Assembly: GCA_028714875.1 (NCBI GenBank)
Contig: JAQTLN010000002.1
Span: 1 to 64,000, forward strand
Reading direction: 5' to 3'
Length of the DNA: 64,000 bases
From: Gallionellaceae bacterium
GTDB lineage: Bacteria > Pseudomonadota > Gammaproteobacteria > Burkholderiales > Thiobacillaceae
How positions within the stretch are numbered: the stretch's first letter is position 1; every line of letters begins with the position of its first letter. Below are positions 6,977 to 64,000 of the stretch, in pieces. The notes beneath the pieces are model-generated. The model was not told the origin of the DNA and did no database searches. It saw only the letters and a list, made by a program, of their open reading frames with translations. Both the position numbers and the translations under genes were made by a program.

Positions 6977-7933
6977 TCAGAGAACGGCGTTGAAGACGAA
7001 GCCGACCAGCATGATGCCGGCGGCGACCACGCCGGCAAACACGGCGATCAGGGTGGGTTTGAGCACTTTGCGGAGAATCACCATCTCCGGCGCGGACAGG
7101 GCGATGACGCTCATCATGAAAGCCAGCACCGTGCCCAGCGCGGCGCCCTTGCCGAGCAGGGCCTGGATCACCGGCAGGATGCCGGCGGCGTTGCTGTACA
7201 TGGGCACGCCCAGCAGCACGGCGGCGGGCACCGCCCACCATTGCTCCTTGCCCATGATGCCGGCCATCAGGTCTTGCGGCACATAGCCGTGGATGCCGGC
7301 GCCGATGGCGATGCCGGCGATCAGCCAGGGCCAGACGCGGCCGACGATTTCCTTGACGTGCGCCGTGCCGGAGCGAAAGCGGTCGCGCCAGGTCGGCGTG
7401 CCATTCCCCAGGTCGGGCGCTGCGCCCATCTGGATCTTGCGCACCCAATCTTCCAGGTGGTGTTCCATCCCCAACCGCCCGATTACCAAACCGGCGACGA
7501 TGGCCACCGCCAGCCCCAGCCCGAGGTAGAGCGCCGCCACTTTCCAGCCGAACAGGCCGAACAACAGGGCCAGCGCAACCTCGTTGACCATGGGCGCGGA
7601 AATCAGGAAGGAGAAGGTCACTCCCAGCGGCACCCCGGCGGAAAGAAAACCGATGAACAACGGCACCGCCGAACAGGAGCAAAACGGGGTGACGATGCCC
7701 AGTCCGGCCGCCATCACATTACCCAGGCCCAGCGGCTTGTTCGCCAGCCAGGCACGGGTGCGTTCCGGCGAGATATAGCTATGCACCACGCCCATGAGGA
7801 ACACCACCGAGACCAGCAGCAACAACACCTTGGGCACGTCGTAGAGGAAGAACCACACCGCCTCGCCCAGATGGGTGCCGGGGGTGAGGCCCATGAGGTC
7901 GAAGGTCAGCCAGGCGGAGAGCGCGTCGAGCAT
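6977..7933 (-). CDS. DUF318/UPF0718 (ArsP-like) membrane permease
   Basis: A 318-residue integral membrane protein with about eight helices in two halves. The N-terminal half has the family signature PFCSCSAVPLFIGF (about residues 79-92) and the second half has a matching helix pair. ArsP members export trivalent organoarsenicals, and the conserved cysteines fit thiol-reactive substrates. The neighbours (small thioredoxin, ars genes) support a metalloid role, though the exact substrate is inference. The first 21 codons (MLDALSAWLTFDLMGLTPGTH) reappear four times upstream, fused to a palindromic element (array at 7934-8674). The ribosome-binding site (AAAGGGGGG) lies inside that element. Confidence 0.85.
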   Translation of the reverse strand: MLDALSAWLTFDLMGLTPGTHLGEAVWFFLYDVPKVLLLLVSVVFLMGVVHSYISPERTRAWLANKPLGLGNVMAAGLGIVTPFCSCSAVPLFIGFLSAGVPLGVTFSFLISAPMVNEVALALLFGLFGWKVAALYLGLGLAVAIVAGLVIGRLGMEHHLEDWVRKIQMGAAPDLGNGTPTWRDRFRSGTAHVKEIVGRVWPWLIAGIAIGAGIHGYVPQDLMAGIMGKEQWWAVPAAVLLGVPMYSNAAGILPVIQALLGKGAALGTVLAFMMSVIALSAPEMVILRKVLKPTLIAVFAGVVAAGIMLVGFVFNAVL

Positions 7934-8674
7934 GCTTATCCCCCCCTTTGTAAAAGGGGGGGTAGGGGGGATTGGGCAACGCGCGCCAGATCAACCACCG
8001 TGGAAATCCCCCCCCGCCCCCCTTTGGGAAAGGGGGGAGTCCAAAGCCCATGCCGATGGGTACCTGGGGTGCGGCCCATGGGGTCAAAGGTGAGTCGGGC
8101 GGAGAGCGCGTCGAGCATGCTTATCCCCCCCCTTTGCAAAAGGGGGGTTAGGGGGGATTTGGCAACGCGCGCCAGATCAACCACTGTGGAAATCCCCCCC
8201 CGCCCCCCTTTGGGAAAGGGGGGAGTCCAAAGCCCATGCCGATGGGTACCTGGGGTGAGGCCCATGGGGTCAAAGGTGAGTCGGGCGGAGAGCGCGTCGA
8301 GCATGCTTATCCCCCTCTTTGCAAAATGGTGGTTAGGGGGGATTTGGCAACACGCGCCAGATCAACCACTGTGGAAATCCCCCCCGGCCCCCCTTTGGGA
8401 AAGGGGGGAGTCAAAAGCCCATGCCGATGGGTACCTGGGGTGCGGCCCATGGGGTCAAAGGTGAGTCGGGCGGAGAGCGCGTCGAGCATGCTTATCCCCC
8501 CCTTTGTAAAAGGGGGGGTAGGGGGGATTTGGCAACACGCGCCAGATCAACCACTGTGGAAATCCCCCCCGGTCCCCCTTTGGGAAAGGGGGGAGTCAAA
8601 AGCCCATGCCGATGGGTGCCTGGGGTGAGGCCCATGGGGTCAAAGGTGAATCGGGCGGAGAGCGCGTCGAGCAT
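7934..8674 (-). repeat. Tandem array of four 185-186 bp units: permease 5' fragment plus palindromic element
   Basis: The sequence GAGAGCGCGTCGAGCAT (antisense of ATGCTCGACGCGCTCTC) recurs with start codons at 7933, 8118, 8304, 8489 and 8674, giving periods of 185, 186, 185 and 185 bases. Read on the minus strand, each unit holds about 21-23 codons matching the permease N-terminus (MLDALSARLTFDPMG...TPGTHRHG) followed by a GC-rich element with two C-run/G-run hairpins that translates as ...PPFPKGGRGG... and ...SPLTPLLQRGG, then TAA-GC-ATG of the next unit. The element belongs to the PPFPKGG type of dispersed bacterial repeat; a related copy is at 12372-12467. The units are nearly identical to each other but differ at several positions from the true permease 5' end. 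The mini-ORFs are not independent genes. Confidence 0.9.
7940..7962 (-). promoter_or_regulatory. Hairpin that contains the permease ribosome-binding site
   Basis: On the minus strand a run of Cs plus TTTT, then AC, then AAA plus a G-run forms a strong hairpin directly before GATAAGC-ATG. The G-run (5-7 bases ahead of the start at 7933) is the only Shine-Dalgarno candidate for the permease and is fully paired with the C-run. Translation should therefore depend on opening of the hairpin or on coupling with the reading frame that ends two bases before the ATG (inference). Confidence 0.55.
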
Positions 8675-8676
8675 GG

Positions 8677-8904
8677 TTATGCCCCGCAACAGCCGGCACC
8701 CTGCCCCGCGCGTTGCAACTGGATGGGCGGGCAGGGCACGTCGCCGTAGGAACAGAACACGCAGCAGTCGCCCGGCTTGGGTGTCAGCAGGGCGCCGCAG
8801 CCGGGGCAGGGGAAAAACCACTGGCAGGCATCGGTGGGCATGGTCTCCGTGCTGGTATGGCCGCAGTGAGGGCAGATCAGGGTGGATTGCGCGATGGGGG
8901 TCAT
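8677..8904 (-). CDS. GDCCVxC-domain small cysteine-rich protein
   Basis: A 75-residue protein with a zinc-ribbon-like N-terminus (CPHC near residue 11, CPGC near residue 33) and the family signature GDCCVFCSYGDVPCPPIQ (about residues 45-62). Homologues are known as GDCCVxC-domain (seleno)proteins; here every position is Cys, with no in-frame TGA. The tail ends GAGCCGA, again a vicinal cysteine pair. Its ATG overlaps the stop of the MBL-fold gene (ATGA). Its TAA is followed two bases later by the ATG of the first array unit, so it was probably translationally coupled to the permease before the array formed. The biochemical role of the family is not established. Confidence 0.8.
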   Translation of the reverse strand: MTPIAQSTLICPHCGHTSTETMPTDACQWFFPCPGCGALLTPKPGDCCVFCSYGDVPCPPIQLQRAGQGAGCCGA

Positions 8905-9827
8905 GGCGCGGACTCGAATTCCACGAATGCCCGGTTCATGTTGCCCCGGTGCAGACCGTCGTAGTTTTCCAGGTGTTTGAACGCGGGCAGATCGGCGTGG
9001 CGGGCGAGCACGTCGCTCATGGATTCCATTTCCTTCGCGGCCGCACCCACCTTGTTCACCAGGAAGTCGTAGTAGTCGCCTGTTTCGCGCCTGGCCAGGG
9101 CCAGATCGCAGACGCGGCCGTGGCCGGGGACGATGTGAGCGGGTTGCAATGCTTCCAGGGCATGAAATGCTTTCTGGCTGTTTTTCACATTGGACCAAGG
9201 CAGCACGCCGAGCAGGCGGTCGATGAACACCAGGTCGCCGCTGAACAGCACACTGTGTTTCGGCAGCCAGACCCAGGCATCGCCGGGGAAGTGGGCGTCG
9301 GTGTAGGCCAGTTCCAGAATTTCGCCGCCCAGTTCCAGGGTGGCGGAGTTGCCCGGCAAGGTCTTGCCGGCGGGCAGCGGCTTCGTCCCTTTCAGGCGTT
9401 CTCCGAGGAAGCGGTTGAGGCCCGCCATATGCTGTTCCGCGTATTGCGCTTGGGTCGCGGCGGTCCGGGCAAGGGAGATGACTTCCGCCCCTTCGGCCGC
9501 GAAAAAGTCGTTGCCCAGCCAGCGGTGGTCCTGGCTGCCGCTGTTGATCACCCAGCGCACCGGTTGTTCGGTCACGGCGCGGATGGCCACGGCGATCTTC
9601 TCCGCGCCAAGACGGCTGGCCCCGGAGTCGATCAGGATCACGCCCGCTTGGGTGACGATGAAGCCGAAGTTGGCGTTGAGGCCGTCGTTCTCCGCGCCGC
9701 GCTGGCCGAGCGGGCCGATCAGGGCGTAGACGTTGTCGACCACCTTTTCGGCCTTCGGTTGGTAATCCGCGAAAGCGGAGAGACTGGCAAAGGCGGTTAA
9801 AAGGACAAAAACAAGACGTTGCAACAT
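8901..9827 (-). CDS. Exported MBL-fold (metallo-beta-lactamase superfamily) protein with an incomplete metal site
   Basis: A 308-residue protein with a signal peptide (cleavage near ASLSAFA-DYQ, residue 20) and a metallo-beta-lactamase fold: GVILIDSGAS, the DHRWLGN segment, YTDAHFPGDAWVWLP, SVLFSGDLVF and AHIVPGHG. Overall it resembles the SoxH/quinoprotein-relay hydrolases. The usual HxHxDH is replaced by NSGSQDH: the D-H pair is kept but the first two histidines are gone, so normal two-zinc hydrolysis is doubtful. It sits in the ars transcription unit, 9 bases after acr3 and overlapping the GDCCVxC gene. Function in the pathway is unknown. Confidence 0.8.
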   Translation of the reverse strand: MLQRLVFVLLTAFASLSAFADYQPKAEKVVDNVYALIGPLGQRGAENDGLNANFGFIVTQAGVILIDSGASRLGAEKIAVAIRAVTEQPVRWVINSGSQDHRWLGNDFFAAEGAEVISLARTAATQAQYAEQHMAGLNRFLGERLKGTKPLPAGKTLPGNSATLELGGEILELAYTDAHFPGDAWVWLPKHSVLFSGDLVFIDRLLGVLPWSNVKNSQKAFHALEALQPAHIVPGHGRVCDLALARRETGDYYDFLVNKVGAAAKEMESMSDVLARHADLPAFKHLENYDGLHRGNMNRAFVEFESAP

Positions 9828-9836
9828 GAGTATTCC

Positions 9837-10916
9837 TTAGCGAGACGACAAGCCGGCTTCGTACCAGCCCTTGCTCTGATTGACGACTTTTACCACCAGC
9901 AACATCACCGGCACCTCGATCAGCACGCCCACCACGGTGGCCAGCGCCGCGCCGGATTCGAAGCCGAACAGTGAGATTGCCGCCGCCACCGCCAGTTCAA
10001 AGAAGTTGGAGGCGCCGATCAGGGCCGAGGGGCAGGCCACGCTGTGTTTTTCGCCGACCTTGCGGTTGAGCCAGTAGGCCAGGGACGAGTTGAACAACAC
10101 CTGGATCAGGATCGGCACCGCCAGCAGGGCGATGATCAGCGGCGCTTTCAGGATGGCCTCGCCCTGGAAGGCGAACAGCAGCACCAGGGTGACCAGCAGG
10201 GCGAGGATGGAAGCGTGGCCCAGTGTGGCCAGGGTGGCGTCGAACTTTGCCTGGCCCTGTTTCAGCAGAATGCCGCGCCAGGCTTGCGCCAGGATCACCG
10301 GGATGACGATGTACAGCAACACCGAGATGAACAGGGTGTCCCACGGCACGACGATGGCCGACAGCCCCAGCAGCAGGCCGACGATGGGGGCGAAGGCGAA
10401 GATCATGATGGTGTCGTTGAGCGCCACCTGCGACAGAGTGAACAGCGGGTCGCCGCCGGTCAGCCGGCTCCACACGAACACCATCGCCGTGCACGGCGCG
10501 GCGGCCAGCAGGATCAGGCCGGCGACGTAGCTGTCGAGTTGTTCCGCCGGCAAATACGGGGCGAACAAATGGCGGATGAACAGCCAGGCCAGCAGCGCCA
10601 TGGAGAACGGTTTCACCGCCCAGTTGATGAACAGGGTGACGCCGATGCCGCGCCAGTGCGACTTCACCTGATGGAGTGCCGCGAAGTCGATCTTCATCAA
10701 CATCGGGATGATCATCACCCAGATCAGCAGGCCGACCGGGAGATTCACCTGGGCGACTTCCATATGCCCCAGCGCCTGGAACGGCGCCGGAAACAGCTGA
10801 CCCGCCAGAATGCCGACGACGATGCACAGCGCCACCCAGAGGGTAAGCCAGCGCTCGAAAACACTCATGGGCGCCCCGGTTGCGCGCTTGGCGGTGGTTT
10901 CACATTGGGCACTCAT
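9837..10916 (-). CDS. acr3: ACR3-family arsenite efflux transporter
   Basis: A 359-residue inner-membrane arsenite/H+ antiporter of the bile/arsenite/riboflavin transporter superfamily, with about ten hydrophobic helices. Family hallmarks include VNLPVGLLIWVMIIPMLMKIDF, the conserved Cys helix AAPCTAMVFVWS, and ALIGASNFFELAVAAAISLFG. The ATG at 10916 overlaps the stop of the upstream arsenate reductase (ATGA), which argues for this start; MSVFERW (10868) is an alternative. It exports As(III) made by the two reductases encoded just upstream. Confidence 0.95.
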   Translation of the reverse strand: MSAQCETTAKRATGAPMSVFERWLTLWVALCIVVGILAGQLFPAPFQALGHMEVAQVNLPVGLLIWVMIIPMLMKIDFAALHQVKSHWRGIGVTLFINWAVKPFSMALLAWLFIRHLFAPYLPAEQLDSYVAGLILLAAAPCTAMVFVWSRLTGGDPLFTLSQVALNDTIMIFAFAPIVGLLLGLSAIVVPWDTLFISVLLYIVIPVILAQAWRGILLKQGQAKFDATLATLGHASILALLVTLVLLFAFQGEAILKAPLIIALLAVPILIQVLFNSSLAYWLNRKVGEKHSVACPSALIGASNFFELAVAAAISLFGFESGAALATVVGVLIEVPVMLLVVKVVNQSKGWYEAGLSSR

Positions 10917-11422
10917 GCTGATGTTTCCCGGCCGATGTCGCTCAGTGCCTTTTGCAGCTTGATCCGGTCCAATTTGTCGAAGGGTAGATGGGCGAACAGG
11001 CCGATACGATTCGACAATTGATTGAAGGCTAGAAAGAAGGCGCGCCGTCGGGTGTCGTCGTTGCCCGCCACGGCGGCGGGGTCGGGCACGCCCCAGTGCG
11101 CGGTCATGGGCTGGCCGGGCCACACCGGGCAGACCTCGCCGGCGGCGTCGTCGCAGACGGTGAACACGAAATCCAGTTCGGGCGCGCCCGCTTGCGCGAA
11201 CTCATCCCAAGACTTGCTGCGCAATCCCTGTGTCGGCAGGTGGTTTTTCTCCAGCAGTTCGAGGGCGAAAGGATGTACCTGGCCGGTCGGGTGGCTGCCG
11301 GCGCTATAGGCCTGGAAGCGTCCCTGGCTCAAAGCCATGTTGTTCAGCACCGATTCCGCGAGGATGGAACGCGCGGAATTGCCGGTGCACAGGAACAGGA
11401 CATTGAATATTTTCTCGGACAT
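10913..11422 (-). CDS. arsC: LMW phosphatase-type arsenate reductase (second copy)
   Basis: A 169-residue cytoplasmic protein of the low-molecular-weight tyrosine phosphatase fold. The P-loop is LCTGNSARS (Cys12), and the redox pair C90 and C98 (VFTVCDDAAGEVCPVW) matches thioredoxin-coupled ArsC. It is longer than the 135-residue paralogue next door by a C-terminal helical extension (FFLAFNQLSNRIGLFAHLPFDKLDRIKLQKAL), as in the ArsC-like proteins often found with acr3. GAGGAGG sits ahead of ATG 11422. It reduces arsenate to arsenite for Acr3 export (family knowledge). Confidence 0.9.
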   Translation of the reverse strand: MSEKIFNVLFLCTGNSARSILAESVLNNMALSQGRFQAYSAGSHPTGQVHPFALELLEKNHLPTQGLRSKSWDEFAQAGAPELDFVFTVCDDAAGEVCPVWPGQPMTAHWGVPDPAAVAGNDDTRRRAFFLAFNQLSNRIGLFAHLPFDKLDRIKLQKALSDIGRETSA

Positions 11423-11448
11423 CGTGGCCTCCTCGGGCGGAAGGGGGC

Positions 11449-11856
11449 TTAAAGGCCCAGATGCTCGCGCACAGCCGGAATCAGCCGGGCACGGATGTCT
11501 TCGCGCACCTGGATGAAGCTTTCCAGCGGCTCGCCATGCGGGTCGTGGAAAGGCAGGTGGATGGATTTCACCGGGCGGGGAAAGATCGGGCAGGTCTCCT
11601 TCGCGTTGTCGCAGACGGTCACCACCAGGTCGATGGACTCGTTCATCACCGCGTCCACGTCCTTCGGGTAGAGGCCATCGGCGGGCAGGCCGGCATCCTT
11701 GAGCGCGGCGATGGCGCCATCGGCGACCTTGGGCTGGGGTTTGGTGCCGGCGGACAGGGCACGCACTTTCCCGGCCAGTTCGTGATTGAGCAGCACTTCG
11801 GCCATCTGGGAACGGCAGGAGTTGCCGGTGCAAAGAACGAGAACGGTAGCGGTCAT
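11449..11856 (-). CDS. arsC: Thioredoxin-dependent arsenate reductase
   Basis: A 135-residue cytoplasmic arsenate reductase. Cys9 in the P-loop LCTGNSCRSQ with Cys82 and Cys89 (VVTVCDNAKETCPIF) reproduces the three-cysteine relay known from the Staphylococcus/Bacillus ArsC family, in which the disulfide is recycled by thioredoxin. It is the first structural gene after arsR and is followed 26 bases later by a diverged paralogue. Confidence 0.94.
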   Translation of the reverse strand: MTATVLVLCTGNSCRSQMAEVLLNHELAGKVRALSAGTKPQPKVADGAIAALKDAGLPADGLYPKDVDAVMNESIDLVVTVCDNAKETCPIFPRPVKSIHLPFHDPHGEPLESFIQVREDIRARLIPAVREHLGL

Positions 11857-11881
11857 GAGGCTTCCTTTGGGTGCGGTGGGT

Positions 11882-12202
11882 TCAGTTGGAACAAGCTGGC
11901 GCGCAGGTTTGCGATTCAGTGGTCGGCAGCGGCGGCATGCCGTCCTTCATGTGCAGCAACACGCGATACGCCCAGGCGGGAAGATCAGGATGGATGCGGT
12001 AATGCATCCACACCCCCTCACGTCTCGCCAGCACCAGGCCGGCTTCGCGCAGCACCGCGAGATGGCGCGACACCTTGGGCTGCGAGGCATCCAGCGCGCC
12101 GTGCATCTCGCATACGCAACATTCGTCGGTGTCGAGCAGCAGGGTCAGGATGCGGCGCCGGATGGGGTCGCCAAGCGCGTCGAAGAATATTTGTTGTTCC
12201 AT
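11882..12202 (-). CDS. arsR: ArsR-family metalloid-responsive repressor
   Basis: A 106-residue ArsR/SmtB winged-helix repressor. The As(III) site ECCVCEMH (about residues 27-34) matches the ELCVCDL motif of classical ArsR, followed by recognition helix residues SQPKVSRHLAVLREAGLV. A second cysteine pair lies in the tail (CAPACSN), reminiscent of ArsR types that bind arsenite with C-terminal cysteines. The start at Met10 of the longest frame (12202) fits the family length; an ATG at 12229 is the alternative. It should repress its own operon through the upstream region at 12203-12300. Confidence 0.93.
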   Translation of the reverse strand: MEQQIFFDALGDPIRRRILTLLLDTDECCVCEMHGALDASQPKVSRHLAVLREAGLVLARREGVWMHYRIHPDLPAWAYRVLLHMKDGMPPLPTTESQTCAPACSN

Positions 12203-12300
12203 ATTTATGTCTTGTTTCGTGAGCGGCATATTAGGCGACGTCGCGGACTATACATCCGTTACGGCATATATGCGAAGCTTGTTATAAGGGTGATGGACAG
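12203..12300 (-). promoter_or_regulatory. arsR promoter/operator region (candidate)
   Basis: AT-richer than its surroundings and directly upstream of arsR. It contains the palindrome GCATATATGC at 12264-12273 and, nearer the gene, TATAGT-like and ATATTTATG segments that could serve as -10 elements. ArsR operators are short imperfect AT-rich inverted repeats, so this is the expected place, but I cannot fix the promoter. Confidence 0.4.
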
Positions 12301-12371
12301 TCCCAACCATTGGGGAATGAGCTGCTCGCGTGGGCCATTGATATGCGCGGAAGCGGGTGGGAACTTGGCCT

Positions 12372-12467
12372 CCCCCTTTTTCAAAGGGGGAGTGAGGATT
12401 TCTCCAAGGCTTGTGCCTGTGCGAGCGTCCGAAAATCCCCCCCCCGCCCCCCTTTGGGAAAGGGGGG
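12372..12467. repeat. PPFPKGG-type palindromic element, dispersed copy
   Basis: Two hairpins, CCCCCTTT/AAAGGGGG at 12372-12390 and CCCCCCTTT-GGG-AAAGGGGGG at 12447-12467, flank about 55 unrelated bases. The second hairpin and its GGGGGGAGT flank match those in the 7934-8674 array. The element ends about four bases beyond the stop codon of the minus-strand gene that ends at 12472, so it lies just outside that gene's 3' end. No gene is visible in 12300-12471. Confidence 0.8.
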
Positions 12468-12471
12468 AGTA

Positions 12472-14289
12472 CTACTGCGCCGGCGCGAAGCGTGCGCGCA
12501 ACACCGCGAGGGTGCCGGGATAGCCGAGCGGGTCGGCCAATGCGCTACGGCTGGCGTGGGCGAGGGCGCGATCAAGGGCTTCCGCTGGCGTGCTGCCGGG
12601 CAGGCTCAGGCTGGCGCGGATCAGGGAGGCGCTAGGGGAGGGTGTGGCTTCGTCGGGCAGGGCGGCGTGGGTGGCCGCCGTGGCGAGCAGCGGGTGGCTT
12701 TCGCGGCGCCAGCCTTCCAGCGTAAAGAAGCGATCCCAGGCTTGACGCAGCAGTGTGCTCGCCAGAACGCGGCTGCTGGCGTCTTCGAAGGCATCGGCAT
12801 GGTCGAGCAGGCCTTGCGCGAGATAGGCGTAATCGTCCAGTTCGGCATCGGCGAACACGTCCTGACCGACGCGACTTTTCAGCAACTGGCCGTCGCGCAG
12901 CAGTTCATTTTCGATGAAGCCGCGCAGCCGCCGCGCGGCCTGTTCGAATCGGGGCACGCCGTGCCCGGCCCGGCTGAATGCCGACAGAGCCAGGCCATTC
13001 AGGCCGGCGTTGAGCTTGCCGTCGCGCGGCAGGTCACGCATCCGACCGGCACTTTTCAGGCGCGCATAGGCGGCGGCGAGGTTGGCTCTTTCGCTGCTTG
13101 TGGGCGGCGCTTTTTCCATCGGCAAATCACCCAGATCGAAGCGGCTGTTCGCTCCCAAGTCCCACACCCGCCGCAGCAGACGGACTTGTTCGGGCGTGAG
13201 CCGTTTACGCAGTTCTTCCGGACGCCAGAGATAGGCGCCACCTTCGCGGCCCTGGCTGTCGAGGGCGGAAACGCTGGTGCGAAAGCCGCCTTCGGGGGTG
13301 CCCAGCACGTCGAGCAGGAAATCCAGGGTGTCATGGGCGAGGTCGCGATAGTCCGGCCGCTTCAGCACTTCCGCCGCGCGCGCGTAGAGCTGCGCCAGTT
13401 GCGCGTTGTCGTAGAGCATTTTCTCGAAATGCGGCGTCGCCCAGTCCGGGTCCGTGGTGTAGCGGAAGAAGCCGCCATTGATCGGGTCATGCAGGCCGAG
13501 GCGGGCCATGTTGTCCAGGGTCAGCAGCAGGAATTCGCGCAGGCGCGGTTCCGGCGCGCGCGCCTGGAGGTCGAGCAAGGCGCGCAGTTTCGCCACGTTG
13601 GGGAACTTGCTCACCGTGCCGAAGCCGCCTTGCATGAGGTCGGCCTCGCGCCTGGTGGCTTCCAGGAAACGCTGCTCCAGATTGCGCAGGTCTTGCGCGT
13701 CGGCGGGAATCGGGTTGGCGGCCACGCCCATGATCGGCGCCGCCGCCCGCGCGGCGGCGCGAACGCCGGTGCTGTCCAGGCGCCAGTGGCGGCCCAGTTT
13801 CTCCGCCACGATTCTGAATTTTTCCGGCGGCTGGTAGAGCGTGGCGTAGAAGGGATAGCCCTCCGGCGTGATGAACACGTTGACCGGCCAGCCGGCGACC
13901 CCGTGCAGCTGGCGGGTGAATTCGAGCAGGTCGGCGTCGAGCGCGAGGTTGAGTTCGCGATCCACTTTCACCGGGATGAACCGGCTGTTGAGCAGCGCCG
14001 CGATGGCGGGGTCGCTCCAGCTTTCCCGCTGCATGACATGGCACCAGTGGCAGGCGAAGTAACCCAGGGAAACCAGCAGCGGCTTGTTCTCGCGTTTTGC
14101 CCGCGCCAGGGTATCCGCGTTCCATTCCTGCCAGGCCACCGGGTCGCGGCCGTGCAGGGCGAGATAGGGCGAGGGGTGGCCGGCGAGTTGGTTGACCAGG
14201 GGCGGTTCGCTGGCGGGGTTGGTCACCAGATCGGTCGCCAGGGCCGGAGCCAGGCAAAGTAGAAGCAGGATGAAGATTTTGTTGAGCAT
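12472..14289 (-). CDS. Exported DUF255 thioredoxin-domain protein (YyaL/SSP411-like)
   Basis: A 605-residue protein with a signal peptide (LLLLCLAPALA, about residues 1-18). The N-terminal DUF255 thioredoxin-like domain carries NQLAGHPSPYLALHG and the redox motif CHWC at 80-83 (LGYFACHWCHVM). The rest is an (alpha/alpha)6-type glycosidase-like barrel (ALDSQGREGGAYLWRPEEL, HPLLATAATHAA). Most family members are 650-700 residues and cytoplasmic; a signal peptide and a somewhat shorter C-terminus are notable here. Its reaction is not established. The stop codon lies about four bases from a palindromic element. Confidence 0.85.
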   Translation of the reverse strand: MLNKIFILLLLCLAPALATDLVTNPASEPPLVNQLAGHPSPYLALHGRDPVAWQEWNADTLARAKRENKPLLVSLGYFACHWCHVMQRESWSDPAIAALLNSRFIPVKVDRELNLALDADLLEFTRQLHGVAGWPVNVFITPEGYPFYATLYQPPEKFRIVAEKLGRHWRLDSTGVRAAARAAAPIMGVAANPIPADAQDLRNLEQRFLEATRREADLMQGGFGTVSKFPNVAKLRALLDLQARAPEPRLREFLLLTLDNMARLGLHDPINGGFFRYTTDPDWATPHFEKMLYDNAQLAQLYARAAEVLKRPDYRDLAHDTLDFLLDVLGTPEGGFRTSVSALDSQGREGGAYLWRPEELRKRLTPEQVRLLRRVWDLGANSRFDLGDLPMEKAPPTSSERANLAAAYARLKSAGRMRDLPRDGKLNAGLNGLALSAFSRAGHGVPRFEQAARRLRGFIENELLRDGQLLKSRVGQDVFADAELDDYAYLAQGLLDHADAFEDASSRVLASTLLRQAWDRFFTLEGWRRESHPLLATAATHAALPDEATPSPSASLIRASLSLPGSTPAEALDRALAHASRSALADPLGYPGTLAVLRARFAPAQ

Positions 14290-42772: not shown

Positions 42773-42777
42773 AAGCT

Positions 42778-42850
42778 GTAGGTTGGGCAAAGCGAAGCGT
42801 GCCCAACGAACCGTTGCAATGTTGGGCACGCTTCGCTTTGCCCAATCTAC
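42778..42850. repeat. Long palindromic repeat (GTTGGGCA...TGCCCAAC type) between iscA and hscB
   Basis: Two 30-base arms, 42778-42807 and 42821-42850, are inverted copies with one mismatch, and each arm is itself near-palindromic (GTTGGGCA ... TGCCCAAC). The loop is 13 bases. It translates as VGWAKRSVPN and is of the type found dispersed in many proteobacteria. It lies inside the isc operon, so its RNA would form a very stable hairpin there. Confidence 0.9.
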
Positions 42851-42876
42851 GCCTCTGCCCACCGCCAATTAAATAA

Positions 42877-61700: not shown

Positions 61701-64000
61701 CTGCCGGACGGCAATGCCGGGGTCGGCAATCTGAGCATCAGCATCAGCAACGACTACTACACCCAGGTTTACGAATACAACCCGAGCGGCACCGCCGAAA
61801 CCAACAACGGCGCCAGCATCAGCGCCAGTTCCAGCATCGCGCCCTATCCCGACCTGGTCGTCAGCGGCCTTGCGGTGACCCCGGACAGCGGCTTGCAGTC
61901 CGGCGGCGTCATGCACATCGTCTGGAACGACAACAACGTCGGCACCCTGGCGGCGGATTCTTCCTGGTACGACCTGGTGCAGGTGGTGAACACCCGTACC
62001 GGCCAGACCCTGCTGTCCACCACCGTCTACCACGACGCCGCCATCCAGGGCGGCGTGGCCGCCGCCGGCAGCCTGGCGCGTTCCTATGACTACACCCTGC
62101 CCGATGGCGATTCCGGCGTCGGCGACATGCGGGTCAGCATCACCACCGACTACTACAACCACCAGTACGAGTACAACGCGGGCGGCACCGGCAACAGCAA
62201 CAACAGCGCCAGCGCCACCGTGGCCGCGAGCCTCGCGCCCTACGCCGACCTGCAAGTGCGGAACCTCGCGGCCACGCCTTCCACCCTGCTGACCGGCGAG
62301 GTCATGCACATCACCTGGAATGACGCCAATAGCGGCAATCTGGCGGCGAGCGCCAATTGGTATGACCGCGTCGTGGTACTCAACACCACGACCGGCGCGA
62401 CGCTGCTCGACACCACCGTCTATCACAACGCCGGCAGCGAACTGTCCGTGGCGGCCGGCGCCAGCCTGGCGCGCGCCTACGATTTCACACTGCCCAACGG
62501 CACCGCCAGTGTCGGCAATCTGCAAATCACCGTTACCGCCGACACTTACAACTACCAGTACGAACACGACGGCGTCATTCCCAATGGCGGCGAGAGCAAC
62601 AACAGCGCCAGCACCACGGCCAGCGCGAGCATCGCGCCCTACGCCGACCTGCAAGTACAGAACCTGGTGGCGACCCCCTCCAGCCTGCTCACCGGCGGCG
62701 TCATGGCGATCACCTGGAATGACGTCAATAGCGGCAACCTGGCGGCGGGCGCCAACTGGTACGACCGCATCGTCGTGCTCAACACCAGCACCGGCGCGAC
62801 CCTGCTCGACACCACCCTGTACCACAATGCCGCCAGTGAAGGCGGTGTGGCGGCCGGCGCCAGCCTGGCGCGGGCCTGGAACTTCACCTTGCCGAACGGC
62901 GATGCCGCTGTCGGCAATCTGCAAATCACGGTGACCACCGACGCCTACAACTACCAATACGAGTACAACCCGGGCGGCACCGGCGAGAGCAACAACAGCG
63001 CCGTCACCAGCGCCAGCGCGACCCTGGCGCCCTATGCCGACCTGCAAGTCACGGGCCTGTTGATCGGCCCGGCCACACCGCATTCCGGCGACGTGGTGAC
63101 GATCTCCTGGAACGACAGCAATACCGGCAATGGCGCCGCGAGCGCCTCCTTCTACGACTACCTGCGGGTACGCAATACCGATACCGGCGAGTGGCTGTAC
63201 TCCACCACCCTCTATTACGACGCCAACACCCAGGGCAGCATCGCCGTCGGCGGCGCGCTCGCCCGTAGCGCCAGCTTCACCCTGCCGCAGGGCACGCGCG
63301 GCGTCGGCAACCTGGAAGTGACGGTCAGCAGTGACTGGTACAACCAGGTGTACGAACGCAACAACCTCGGCACGGGCGAGAGCAACAACACCACGGTGGC
63401 CAACGCCGCTTCCAGCATCGCGGACTACGCCGACCTGCGCGCGCGCAACCTCGCGCTGACACCGACCAGCTTCACCTCCGGCGCCAGCGTCACCCTGAAC
63501 TGGGAAACCTACAACGATGGCTTGGCGGCCAGCGCCGCCTCGTTCTACGACCGCGTCATGGTGGTGAACCAGACGACCGGCGAGACCCTGGTCAACACCT
63601 GGGTCTACTACGACCAGGCCAGCGGCGGTTCCCTCAACGCCGGGGAAGCCCGTGCCCGTTCCTACAGTTTCAACCTGCCGCAAGGCACGCGCGGCGCCGG
63701 TAATCTGCTGATCACGGTGGATGCCGACATCGGCAACTACGTGTTCGAGTACAACGCCGGCGGCACCGGCGAGAGCAACAACAGCGCCAGCCTCGCCGCG
63801 ACTTCCGGGCTGGCTCCGTACCCCGACCTGACCGTGAGCGACATCCAGGCACCCGGCAGCGCGTTGGCCGGACGTTCGACGCAGGTGTCCTGGACGGTCG
63901 CCAACCTGGGCGACCTGGCCGCCACCGGCGCCTGGTCGGAACAGGTCTGGCTGTCGAACGACGCGGTCATCGGCGGCGATCAGTTGCTCGGCACCTTCTA
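49794..64000 (+). CDS. Giant LEPR-XLL repeat surface protein (partial, runs off the window)
   Basis: The ATG at 49794, after GAGGAGG, opens a frame with no stop to the end: at least 4,735 residues. LEPRLLMSAD (residues 53-62) is the LEPR-XLL signature of very large exported proteins. Modules by base: PPC/beta domains to 50700; GATase-like domain 1 (50850-51410); PPC and Ig-like pair with DxDxDG-type calcium loops (51410-52360); PPC (to 52750); a jelly-roll-like domain (52880-53370); discoidin-like F5/8C (53400-53840); GATase-like domains 2, 3 and 4 near 54170, 56600 and 58720, each followed by PPC-Ig-Ig-PPC; then about ten CARDB-like repeats of some 130 residues from 60300 to the end. No Cys is seen. 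The GATase-like copies lack the nucleophile Cys, so they are probably structural. Likely a secreted adhesin or sheath protein; the secretion signal should be at the C-terminus outside the window. Confidence 0.92.
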   Translation, partial: MIAMPKFFAGNKVNPNVFQAAISRFFKRAWTDKGVGGKAEMPPQRRKILFESLEPRLLMSADFNPVAPLGSLIHQSSFSGNFAAAGSDVSYTLALDASQKISVLFGPQDGGIDASILLYAPGAVPGVDAPLNSALASGPGSMVLLDSEVGAAAGDYTLVLHDNAGSGNFNADIFLNATVESEAVGGASNDLVAAAQSLAPSELALAGGGQRYGLVGELQAGNDDYFKLHLQAGDILDFALNSPAAGISLELLSSGGTPIALGEAAGGDTVAIRNYLAVADGDIALRVSGPNAGQYALVATRNISLALSGAQGGGGQDISQTRAVLGNSTLGVSASRGAFLRSAVAGAPWGNTTDETAMDVAFGGGNWDALRFETVNVADLLARHSFLFLEGSDSNANELEAFLNSNMTLLQDWVARGNTLFINAGPNEGDGMSYGFGGVNLRYADYGGTATIVAPAHPIFQGPNLPVVATYTGGSFSHASVNGGGITPLLIDNSGGDAVLAEKQWGQGRVMFGGMTTINFHGPQPQATNLLDNILVYMQSQVVKGGNYSFSADAGVELTLSTATPGDAAGDPANTLDPRIEVYGPSGGLVASDLSSALDGHNALLTFTTTDAGVYSVRVLSESGMGDYVLRVGGGITGTTTPPRVMAASIADGAALNAFPASLVLTFSEALDLSTVQATDLTVNGQAAAGFTVLDARRVSFDLSGLDTGDGVYDVAVASAAFADLQGEGNVAFNLTFSFDTTGPSVIGGTPTEGGILAFGNNSLSFSFDEALDPLNLGMEDVQLYSVMTNSGIDAQNFYYDSGSHTVTVDYPALAEGNYIVTLFSNSTAFRDSLGNLLNNGADQIIHFSVDSDSQAYPTPLDAQRPLGSLIYDPSGTGAFHATGDVDDFTLELDGGQTLSTALFPQDPTFRGRIEVLDPYGNNLTDAYGNSEFDAAGLGATAVLNLLPVLDTGTYTIRVTSLEGAGRYELGVLLNAAAEAEMLGFGGNNDLGSAQAIDAAFIDLGNGARRAAAFGNLAAGSGMPATVISEDFNNGLGNWTTFSDNPDASIYQDGWGHNGGSNSLYMQGDYNNYQPALTEAVWNVDLSGLDNATLSYWIEQHNEQVQPFAGAYVDHANADGVSVSMDGSTWIPVYDQPSDASGNWNQHQIDLGAALAGSGLAVGDIRFIKFQQYSDAGFNPDWAYLDDLAITTWVPNMWLPTDISASGVDYSGGLNLLANGQVPALESDFNGPGSVYWFGHENGGGDPLYFQYDLGGLVRVQDLLLSLDNNDNYVVDYSVDGVNWQTLVVVPEWAGNSAYGMDTFSTRAGNAQYDSNVDFTPVQARYLRISAESGDGAYAVAEMRVLGENQDWYSVDLSAGDHASFVVAGQTGDLRVDLFDALGNPLATGSADASNSDAAIRDFLATADATYFVRVSGARPGDYNLVVSNNSAFEREANDSIGQAQDIGVTGRVLGHASGIIRVAILDSSNNAWQLRDQLNDSRWDGNADINFPIHAEIVNLSQIDTLAELNAYNVVFIGNYNSHGDLVTLAPLLRQWVEAGGGLIASAPLIEQAGANYGAPIADIDAIVPVDTTGYASTSWHYTDLTITDGGHPITQGVANFYVYGTEPATPDAGASVLATYVGTPAVVVGTPGHGRGVYLAPFYISSSSELSYGDADRLVEQAVMWAAGPQQDSYSIHARAGDILSIHTQTPGDGPGEPVNDLDPFISVYAPDGSLIASDDNSLDGRNAMLLVPVASDGTYTIVVSALNGRGDYTLTVDGASGAQADFVVSATQPALDSDLATFPASYRVTLSAQVLLGSVDAGDLTVNGIPADSVTVLDGNTLLFGIAGANVGESLYQVHIDAGALQSVSGAAIQAFDGSFNTDATPPQVASTSQPDWALVSTDPLTIGVTFSEAMDSAGLGAEDVTLVDSHGISHAVANFTYDSLGHSAEISFASLPEGDYTLTLRSNASGFRDRAGLLLDGDADGNAGGNYQLHFIVDVARDSYPVPLTPVQPTGSLIYDPAQNGVFHVAGDEDDYTLEVEGGQVLTLVLSTDATVLGKVSLWRDDGAGNLVLLDEAWAPGQGQDAVLQTVAIDTTATYVLRARADVGAGGYQLQALLNAAREMEMPGTSGGNDIQADAENFNGGFISLVGAASRGAVRGELAAADEDWYSFTLQAGESSTLTLSRDNRAAPGNVQLELYDAGGNLIASGAGDSLTLDRYIKDFKASTTATFYARVTGEATGYSLLVMRNTEFNLGISGQAQDISASNSVLGGFTATSGGAVVVGGAGIRVAVLNGSYSSGVVTQLNDDSYFNFSASLVGAADIDTLAELSQYDVVVIGDQSSHAALASVAPALRQWVEGGGAVVGTGWLTFAAGSATGTPVADIDAIIPVDTSSYYQYQYYPLINITVSDHPVTAGISDFYPDYYTNDTAGADAWGTVLGYANGRPAIVVGQVGAGRSVYLSPSYTDSPGSLQSGFADRLLEQAVAWAAARGDSYTFVANLGDPLVIDTRTPGDGAGEPGNTLDVAVTLYDPNGNIVPAGSYSETSPDTRNVHIEYSAALGGIYRVEVRARNQTSGAYLLTVSGSTAHLDHTPPIVATSSISEGDIIPPGAFTYSATFNEELASLGLGADDVVLTNSDTGATIPLATDGFNYDPVGGTLTLNYSHLAEGNYRLALVSGDSGFRDTQGNPLDGNGDGFGGDDYVVNFRVDTVGATPLQAMRAIAPAGSLVFDPPAAGNLYGVGDVDDFTITLDAGQKATVRVTPVAGLQAQVELIGSDGVTVLGSASAAAGETVLLQNVAIATAGQYTVRINSLAGAGTYETQLVLNAQLENESWSSSDNSVRANAENIDASAIALAGSADRLAVLGRVSAGGNDWYGFTLAAGQSVSLAATRTDLPSGSGLNLRFYDPAGVKMANGIPDAGNVGQSITGFIAPTAGTYYARISSASDLPYSLVVTRSADFGLETRVGIQDISATGQVLGALGGAGAGFGTSGDIRVAVLNSGNAGQVVSQLNDDSYFNFTATSVGAADIDTLAELYNYDVVVIGDQSSRAALTTIAPVLRQWVEGGGGVVGAGWIAYAAGVETGAPLADINAILPVDSGSRTYNYGATLSITNSTHPVTRGVVDFAVPYYTELPPGGVDMIGAQTLATSGGYAAVVVGEPGAGRSVYLGPVYTDSPGGFATGNADRLLEQAVAWAAGDRSDRYTFQATAGQELSISTTTPGDGAGEPVNLLDARIEVYDESGALVAGDDNGAADGRNAHLVFTPATSGLYEVRVIAAGTTPETARGDYLLQIVGANSDVALNARPLVVASNPVAGTNFIAPPTSVILTFSEAILASSLSGSDLVLDNGASATDYTILDGRAIEFHVNLANTEGTFNFSLADGAVSDLQGRPNVAFSSFFTVDHSGPRVVAESPDSDAAFNHIDLTFNEAIDPATVSVADIASFTGPSGASLLDQNVAVSVVSGNILRVTFTNQYAEGDYTLVLSPTLNDLVGNAMNQDGNGVNGETATDGYTAVVHVNSVDLIAPVVTAPASANFGQSITVSWVGHNDLSAPATANWYDYVVLSQNAVFGDGDDSYIAYRYPGAQPLAGHTDYNASVSFTLPQTQTLTEGTWYLFVHSDQGNSQAEANNGNNVSAAMPIELTYGNRPDLIVSALDVIATPQMESGASVTLTWTDTNAGNGVMNGYFYDRVNVYNTSTNTNLGDYDYWYDGRNLADNIAAGGGIDRSATITLPDGLSAVGDLRFTVTTDVYNHVFERTAAGANGENNNSTNVVRNATLAAYADLRVDSLTATPSNPETGSTLHIAWTDGNHGTNATEANFYDRVRVVNTSTGTTLLDNWQHYTGAVIAAGGSIDRSYDFRIPDGPSGVGVLQVSITSDVNGNVYEYLVGIDAEANNDATTSVTSTLAMYPDLQVQNLAINPSSPHSSEQVTITWDDVNSGNLDSAGYSNLIQVYNNTTGTYHVSSAIAVAGVAAGGSAARSFSFTLPDGNAGVGNLSISISNDYYTQVYEYNPSGTAETNNGASISASSSIAPYPDLVVSGLAVTPDSGLQSGGVMHIVWNDNNVGTLAADSSWYDLVQVVNTRTGQTLLSTTVYHDAAIQGGVAAAGSLARSYDYTLPDGDSGVGDMRVSITTDYYNHQYEYNAGGTGNSNNSASATVAASLAPYADLQVRNLAATPSTLLTGEVMHITWNDANSGNLAASANWYDRVVVLNTTTGATLLDTTVYHNAGSELSVAAGASLARAYDFTLPNGTASVGNLQITVTADTYNYQYEHDGVIPNGGESNNSASTTASASIAPYADLQVQNLVATPSSLLTGGVMAITWNDVNSGNLAAGANWYDRIVVLNTSTGATLLDTTLYHNAASEGGVAAGASLARAWNFTLPNGDAAVGNLQITVTTDAYNYQYEYNPGGTGESNNSAVTSASATLAPYADLQVTGLLIGPATPHSGDVVTISWNDSNTGNGAASASFYDYLRVRNTDTGEWLYSTTLYYDANTQGSIAVGGALARSASFTLPQGTRGVGNLEVTVSSDWYNQVYERNNLGTGESNNTTVANAASSIADYADLRARNLALTPTSFTSGASVTLNWETYNDGLAASAASFYDRVMVVNQTTGETLVNTWVYYDQASGGSLNAGEARARSYSFNLPQGTRGAGNLLITVDADIGNYVFEYNAGGTGESNNSASLAATSGLAPYPDLTVSDIQAPGSALAGRSTQVSWTVANLGDLAATGAWSEQVWLSNDAVIGGDQLLGTF

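Follow-up and report, generated by a model that had tools for sequence, protein, structure and literature searches.

The question raised by this locus is how a row of hairpin-bearing repeats came to lie between two ars genes, and whether it serves the translation of the gene behind it. The locus belongs to an ars gene cluster on the minus strand of a 64-kb stretch of DNA from a Gallionellaceae bacterium (contig JAQTLN010000002.1, 64,000 nt, hereafter the window). The hairpin-repeat array (7934-8674, minus strand) is located between the gene encoding a GDCCVxC domain protein (8677..8904, minus strand, 75 aa; NCBIfam NF041374, E 2.5e-30, 104.5 bits against a cut-off of 40, with the open reading frame (ORF) checked) and the gene encoding an ArsP-type permease of the ArsP_1 family (6977..7933, minus strand, 318 aa; PF03773, E 1e-75, 255.1 bits against a cut-off of 32.3). 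The best reading of the array is a coupling-preserving insertion, similar to the mycobacterial interspersed repetitive units (MIRUs), which was multiplied by ordinary repeat recombination.

The array consists of four head-to-tail units of 185, 185, 186 and 185 nt, with minus-strand ATGs at 8674, 8489, 8304 and 8118 followed by the permease ATG at 7933, and Tandem Repeats Finder reported the region 7870-8685 with a period of 185, 4.4 copies, 94% matches and a score of 1420. Each unit is made up of a 64-nt copy of the permease 5' end, a short linker, a two-hairpin palindromic element and a terminal TAA-GC. The copies differ from the permease 5' end at 7-8 positions and cover 21 codons plus one base, close to the 21-23 codons of the original prediction. 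Two core hairpins are present per unit, giving eight in the array, one of them degenerate. In unit 4, the 33-nt element arm at 8005..8037 is 82% complementary to its partner at 7941-7973, 31 nt apart, and this layout of paired inverted arms is repeated in the other three units.

The units also carry a chain of reading frames. The stop of the GDCCVxC gene lies 2 nt ahead of the ATG of unit 1 (TAA-CC-ATG), and the junctions after the unit 1 start read TAA-GC-ATG. Unit 1 (8490..8674) and unit 2 (8305..8489, containing the degenerate hairpin) each encode a mini-ORF of 60 aa ending in TAA, while unit 3 (8119..8304, 186 nt) has an extra G in its terminal run and its mini-ORF continues into unit 4, giving 122 aa in total. 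Unit 4 (7934..8118) has its own ATG, which opens a 60-aa frame with its TAA 2 nt ahead of the permease ATG. The chain is thus the GDCCVxC stop followed by frames of 60, 60 and 122 codons, each opening with an ATG 2 nt after the preceding stop, and since the last frame also stops 2 nt before the permease ATG, the stop-start coupling layout is preserved. The original prediction, made from the letters of the window, was therefore right about the four repeated units, the eight hairpins, the TAA-GC-ATG unit ends, the GDCCVxC stop two bases before the first ATG, the fusion of two mini-ORFs by the 186-nt unit and the coupled-start layout.

The comparison with relatives that the original prediction had suggested gave a series of unit numbers. 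In the related genomes G011 and G022, the GDCCVxC and permease genes are separated by TGA-ACC-ATG alone with no insert, in agreement with the proposal that the ancestral permease start followed directly on the GDCCVxC stop. In G006, a single related unit of 255 nt is found at the same site, with one mini-ORF of 83 codons ending TAA-GCC-ATG (a stop-start gap of +3 nt). The unit number across related species is therefore 0 (G011, G022), 1 (G006) and 4 (the window genome), and the proposal that the unit had multiplied is supported.

The junction CACCCATC|GGCATGGG is exactly common to the G006 unit and the window units. In addition, codon 11 is TTT in all of these units, whereas the permease genes have TTC in five of six cases and TAC in the sixth (G012). 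The shared junction and the shared codon point to one event before the split of the window genome and G006. The changes W8R and L13P are common to the four window units and absent from the permease gene and the G006 unit, indicating that the multiplication followed these changes. Over the 64 nt, the G006 unit differs by 6-8 positions from the window units, by 5 from the window gene and by 7 from its own gene, distances that by themselves would not settle a common origin. The interior of the G006 insert (L031:6458-6590) matches another element of the window with some of its flank (12340-12470, 85% over 134 nt), suggesting exchange between elements; this second, single copy of the array element (12372..12467) lies towards the opposite end of the cluster.

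From these comparisons, a two-hairpin palindromic element would have entered the stop-start junction between the GDCCVxC and permease genes in a single event that predates the split between the window genome and G006, and left on its other side a duplication of about 70 bp (the GDCCVxC stop region and the first 64 nt of the permease). The unit of 5' copy and element would then have reached four copies through repeat recombination or slippage. The duplicated segment most likely includes the GDCCVxC stop codon, which would have left both genes whole; the landing of an element with duplication of the permease 5' end, as originally predicted, holds up, with its extent corrected to about 70 bp including the stop. 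One insertion with 5' duplication, followed by expansion to four units in the window lineage, is very probably the history of the array. Of 80 further permease loci fetched, three were too short upstream, and none of the other 77 had a copy of the element in the 700 bases upstream or a duplicated 5' end (local alignment score of at least 60); GDCCVxC was found upstream of the permease in two of the 77.

An assembly artefact, or a wrong number of assembled copies, is highly improbable as a source of the array. Repeats of about 185 bp are hard for short reads, and another array of the same element, on contig C16, begins about 110 bases from the contig end. However, the units carry different single-base changes, which argues against simple assembly duplication, the contig extends about 7.9 kb on one side of the array and 250 kb on the other, and a related unit occupies the same place in G006.

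The start sites were compared for their pairing with the 16S tail. Units 2-4 and the window permease paired at -10.9 to -11.1 kcal/mol and the G006 permease at -10.9 kcal/mol, while six starts without a preceding element had -1.3 to -5.2 kcal/mol, the reference being -6.6 for the strongest 5% of 1000 random window 20-mers. In the terminal hairpin, the Shine-Dalgarno-like sequence AAAGGGGG makes up the 3' arm. Averaged over -18 to -4, the unpaired probability was 0.26-0.37 at units 2-4 and the window permease and 0.19 at the G006 permease. For the starts of G005, G011, G012 and G022 it was 0.44-0.51, and the start of the G006 unit had 0.61. A stop codon was present in seven of the eight off-frame combinations of the window units.

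On this basis, a translation relay is proposed. A ribosome leaving the GDCCVxC gene would restart at the first ATG and translate the open mini-ORF across the hairpins; it would terminate 2 nt short of the following ATG, restart there and continue in this way to the permease. The end of the element would supply a near-consensus Shine-Dalgarno sequence that is predicted to be paired in a hairpin and would become accessible only through the arrival of ribosomes; the ribosome on a mini-ORF may thus open the stem that hides the next start, giving coupling by unfolding. The insertion-expansion history together with a coupling-preserving relay is, taken as a whole, held with moderate confidence. That the relay is used in the cell is a tentative proposal, placed somewhat short of an even chance, and the unit number may raise, lower or leave unchanged the output of the permease. 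If the relay is used, a change in repeat number would be linked to protein level at the translation step, and the species with 0, 1 and 4 units would be a natural series for models of re-initiation.

A further extension would have a mobile hairpin element with a masked ribosome site duplicate the adjoining gene 5' end and build a chain of start cassettes, acting as a relay dependent on unit number, in which slippage in the G-run (185 versus 186 nt) toggles between stop-restart and fused frames as a heritable and reversible dial on the efflux permease. This version is regarded as very doubtful.

Several observations weigh against the reading of the array as a relay-forming insertion. For these counts, element loci were sampled over 598,780 bases of the window's own genome (the whole of contig C2 and 340 kb of contig C1), and the 38 sampled loci were counted with hairpins of up to two mismatches. 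The hairpins showed no preference for ATGs, with 17, 13, 12, 8, 15 and 10 ATGs per 10-nt bin after the 160 hairpin strands of the sample. A long, near-identical flanking direct repeat was present at one of the 38 loci, namely the ars-locus array itself, indicating that the element does not regularly bring about such a duplication. Open frames are common (98/186 through 31 sampled elements and 7028/12000 in random genomic 97-mers), so the open mini-ORF chain could be luck; unit 4 also has one open off-frame. Because the four units share ancestry, the open chain counts as about two independent cases; selection on open frames was not demonstrated in these few cases. The 5' copies gathered mainly amino-acid-changing substitutions (W8R, L13P, L16R), which supports no peptide function, and the mini-ORF peptides themselves probably do nothing. 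The first window start, with no element before it, is paired to the same degree as the later ones (unpaired probability 0.33), so the masking is not clear-cut. One whole unit folded as RNA is unexceptional for its composition (z -1.56, with 12/200 shuffles as good), and the hairpins could equally stall ribosomes.

Much of this would be expected if the array were neutral debris, that is, a hairpin element multiplied via slippage or unequal crossing-over with no benefit to the cell, with frames open by chance and the permease simply tolerated in its place behind the array. Such an account has the same history and no function; it contests the use of the relay, not the insertion and expansion, and it explains the function nearly as well as a used relay does. 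The unconstrained peptide sequence, the common open frames, the absence of hairpin enrichment near ATGs and the element arrays at loci unrelated to arsenic all agree with it. Less easily accommodated are the units of two genomes, one with a different interior, which all end in frame just before a start, and the later starts, which gained a far stronger Shine-Dalgarno match than the starts without an element. Neutral debris is placed only just below an even chance.

A second rival also leaves the history as it is and contests the relay. Repetitive extragenic palindromic (REP) sequences and bacterial interspersed mosaic elements (BIMEs) have reported roles at the RNA level, in stabilisation, attenuation and marking of boundaries, and the array element could similarly act by mRNA stabilisation, transcription attenuation or marking of a gene boundary, not on initiation. 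The structures are very stable, with the 741-nt array RNA folding at -334 kcal/mol (a value with no shuffle control) and the unit 1 element as single-stranded DNA forming three stems, the third one central, in a fold that beats 200/200 shuffles (z -3.7). The unexceptional whole-unit RNA fold given above counts against RNA action, and so do the terminator-like sites, of which the array has two weak ones, in units 1 and 2, and the scanned region six, against 4.8 +- 1.9 in shuffles. Action on RNA is considered unlikely. The coupling-preserving insertion stays the best reading, as a natural case of a repeat that lies between closely spaced operon genes and keeps their stop-start layout by duplicating the start region.

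The element itself is abundant in the genome of the window. Its core CCCCCTTTNNNAAAGGGGG has 494 exact matches in the 4,083,417-base genome and none with a reversed-pattern control. A stricter two-hairpin pattern matched the same genome 26 times forward and 28 times in reverse; of 23 genomes in the genus, 9 have it, in very uneven numbers, and the core hairpin was present at all in 14 of 150 genomes of an order-wide draw. Among the 38 sampled loci, 26 have two hairpins, seven have one, two have three and two have four (including a double element on C2 near 253,648), and the ars-locus array is the sole one with seven. By rough ORF calls, 19 of these loci lie between co-directional genes, six between convergent and two between divergent genes, nine are inside an ORF and two are at edges.

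At the sampled loci, tandem repeats near the elements showed no clear excess (3/38 loci versus 245/4000 random windows). Three further loci reached a shuffle p of 0.005 for a flanking repeat, with a gapped match of 43 columns, a 35-nt match with 27 identities and a 14-nt match, and were judged to be coding-like chance. The orthologues of two element sites (near C2:91883 and C2:94068) in G011 and G022 have the gap filled by other sequence, and a short target-site duplication was not established from these two sites. The filling sequence consists partly of other palindromic repeats, as if by wholesale replacement. At 8 of the 38 loci, the hairpins have a further outer arm beside them, resembling GTTGGTGCGGTGG (three mismatches at most).

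Arrays of the element were also found at five more loci of the same genome, with periods of 174 bp and 204 bp on C5, 180 bp on C16, 123 bp on C17 (13.9 copies) and 128 bp on C22 (2.5 copies), each array having its own period; because such arrays occur away from the ars genes as well, none of this is particular to those genes. These five were found in stretches picked from the match list, so no array frequency can be derived from them, and in the unpicked 340 kb of C1 none of 22 element loci forms an array of the kind seen on C5, C16, C17 and C22. A three-hairpin, long-linker pattern was matched 37 times in the window's genome, and the counts in eight others ranged from 0 to 6.

One linker copy at each of six loci was compared with its flanks, leaving out the C17 array; the left flank of the C16 array falls beyond the contig end. 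At two of the six, the ars-locus array and the 204-bp array on C5, the linker matches the end of the adjacent gene over 64 bp. At the other four, no linker-flank match beat all 200 shuffles, the 174-bp array on C5 and the double element on C2 tying with the best shuffle on one side. The 204-bp array (L064:16288-17877) comprises about eight units, each with a copy of the neighbouring gene's 3' end (about 52 nt of coding sequence, the stop codon and a further 9 nt) and the element. The copied gene, from its translation presumably a component of an FtsX-type ABC transporter, contributes its own end as the final, incomplete unit; in five relatives the gene end is present with no array. The C17 array (L066:6720-8437) adjoins an ORF (8370-10745, minus strand), which we take to encode a GGDEF/EAL protein and which ends inside the array with its C-terminus supplied by the element.

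In G012, an exact 33-bp tandem duplication of a gene 5' end, ribosome site included, directly adjoins a two-unit element array (contig C16, L200:1515-1580). The gene is presumably hypC; the same junction has no element in G001 and G004 and has elements in other positions in G016 and G017. In six G012 stretches, one linker, found in both orientations, is common to the arrays, and the array beside the hypC-like gene has a different one; the linkers of the window genome differ from locus to locus. Hairpin elements may thus copy gene ends into arrays, as with the arsP 5' end and the 3' end of the C5 gene, with the G012 gene-start duplication beside its element pair suggested as a third case, and such copying may be a small route for remodelling gene borders.

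The building blocks of the array are known, and their arrangement is an unusual variant. MIRUs occur in variable tandem copy number, with senX3-regX3 as an example. A 2025 review (PMC12548453) describes MIRUs as apparently mobile, inserting at start codons and coupling the ORF they contain to the gene located there, at a spacing of -4 nt, which likely limits the impact of insertion. The array resembles them in its position at a start codon and in a mini-ORF chain that ends in TAA 2 nt before the permease ATG, where coupling is predicted. It differs in its stop-start gap of +2 nt (+3 in G006) against the -4 nt overlap given for MIRUs in that review, and about a third of each unit copies the 5' end of the downstream gene, the rest being mostly G/C hairpins. 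The array is likened to MIRUs by its layout and is not classed as one.

According to a 2013 study (PMC3733652), most large REP clusters include tandemly reiterated units with flanking DNA of variable length. The array element is likewise an abundant palindrome, single and clustered, in arrays with a locus-specific period and linker. However, it is about 100 nt long, with a central stem flanked by two outer hairpins, and it has no regular GTAG or CGTC tag of the kind given for REP sequences in that study; within 12 nt of the outer hairpin, GTAG was found on 2/76 and CGTC on 3/76 sides of the 38 loci. As for an association with RAYT genes (IS200/IS605-type Y1 transposases), as in REP sequences, five Y1_Tnp matches over the family cut-off are present in the genome of the window (G000; contigs C16, C22, C3, C11 and C7), and the four loci examined had no core hairpin, exact or with up to two mismatches, and one match at three mismatches; no RAYT link was seen at these four of the five.

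The high copy number, the inverted-repeat build and the lack of any gene seen in the element recall miniature inverted-repeat transposable elements, from which it differs in that no short target-site duplication was established. The head-to-tail array with 0, 1 and 4 units across related species resembles variable number tandem repeats, except that its unit carries a start and a stop codon in register. The array joins the ideas of MIRUs and REP clusters, and has a stop-start spacing of +2 nt together with copies of a gene start. Word searches of the literature, with results mostly off topic, turned up no description of this element or layout; the claim that no described system was like it was nevertheless too strong, given the start-codon coupling of MIRUs and the REP clusters with flanking DNA.

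Besides the GDCCVxC protein and the permease, the ars cluster encodes an ACR3 arsenite transporter (TIGR00832), a metallo-hydrolase (Lactamase_B) and a thioredoxin-like protein. No tRNA genes were found in the window, and an Rfam scan of 7800-12600 gave seven matches up to E = 1, all far under the gathering score. On C2 of the same genome, 210268-210361 is a perfect 7-bp tandem repeat with 13.4 copies. The window also has, at 42775-42859, a member of a second repeat family (about 75 bp), with several matches inside the ars regions of G006 and of G011, and about three diverged tandem copies of 393-399 bp each were observed at 62018-63146.
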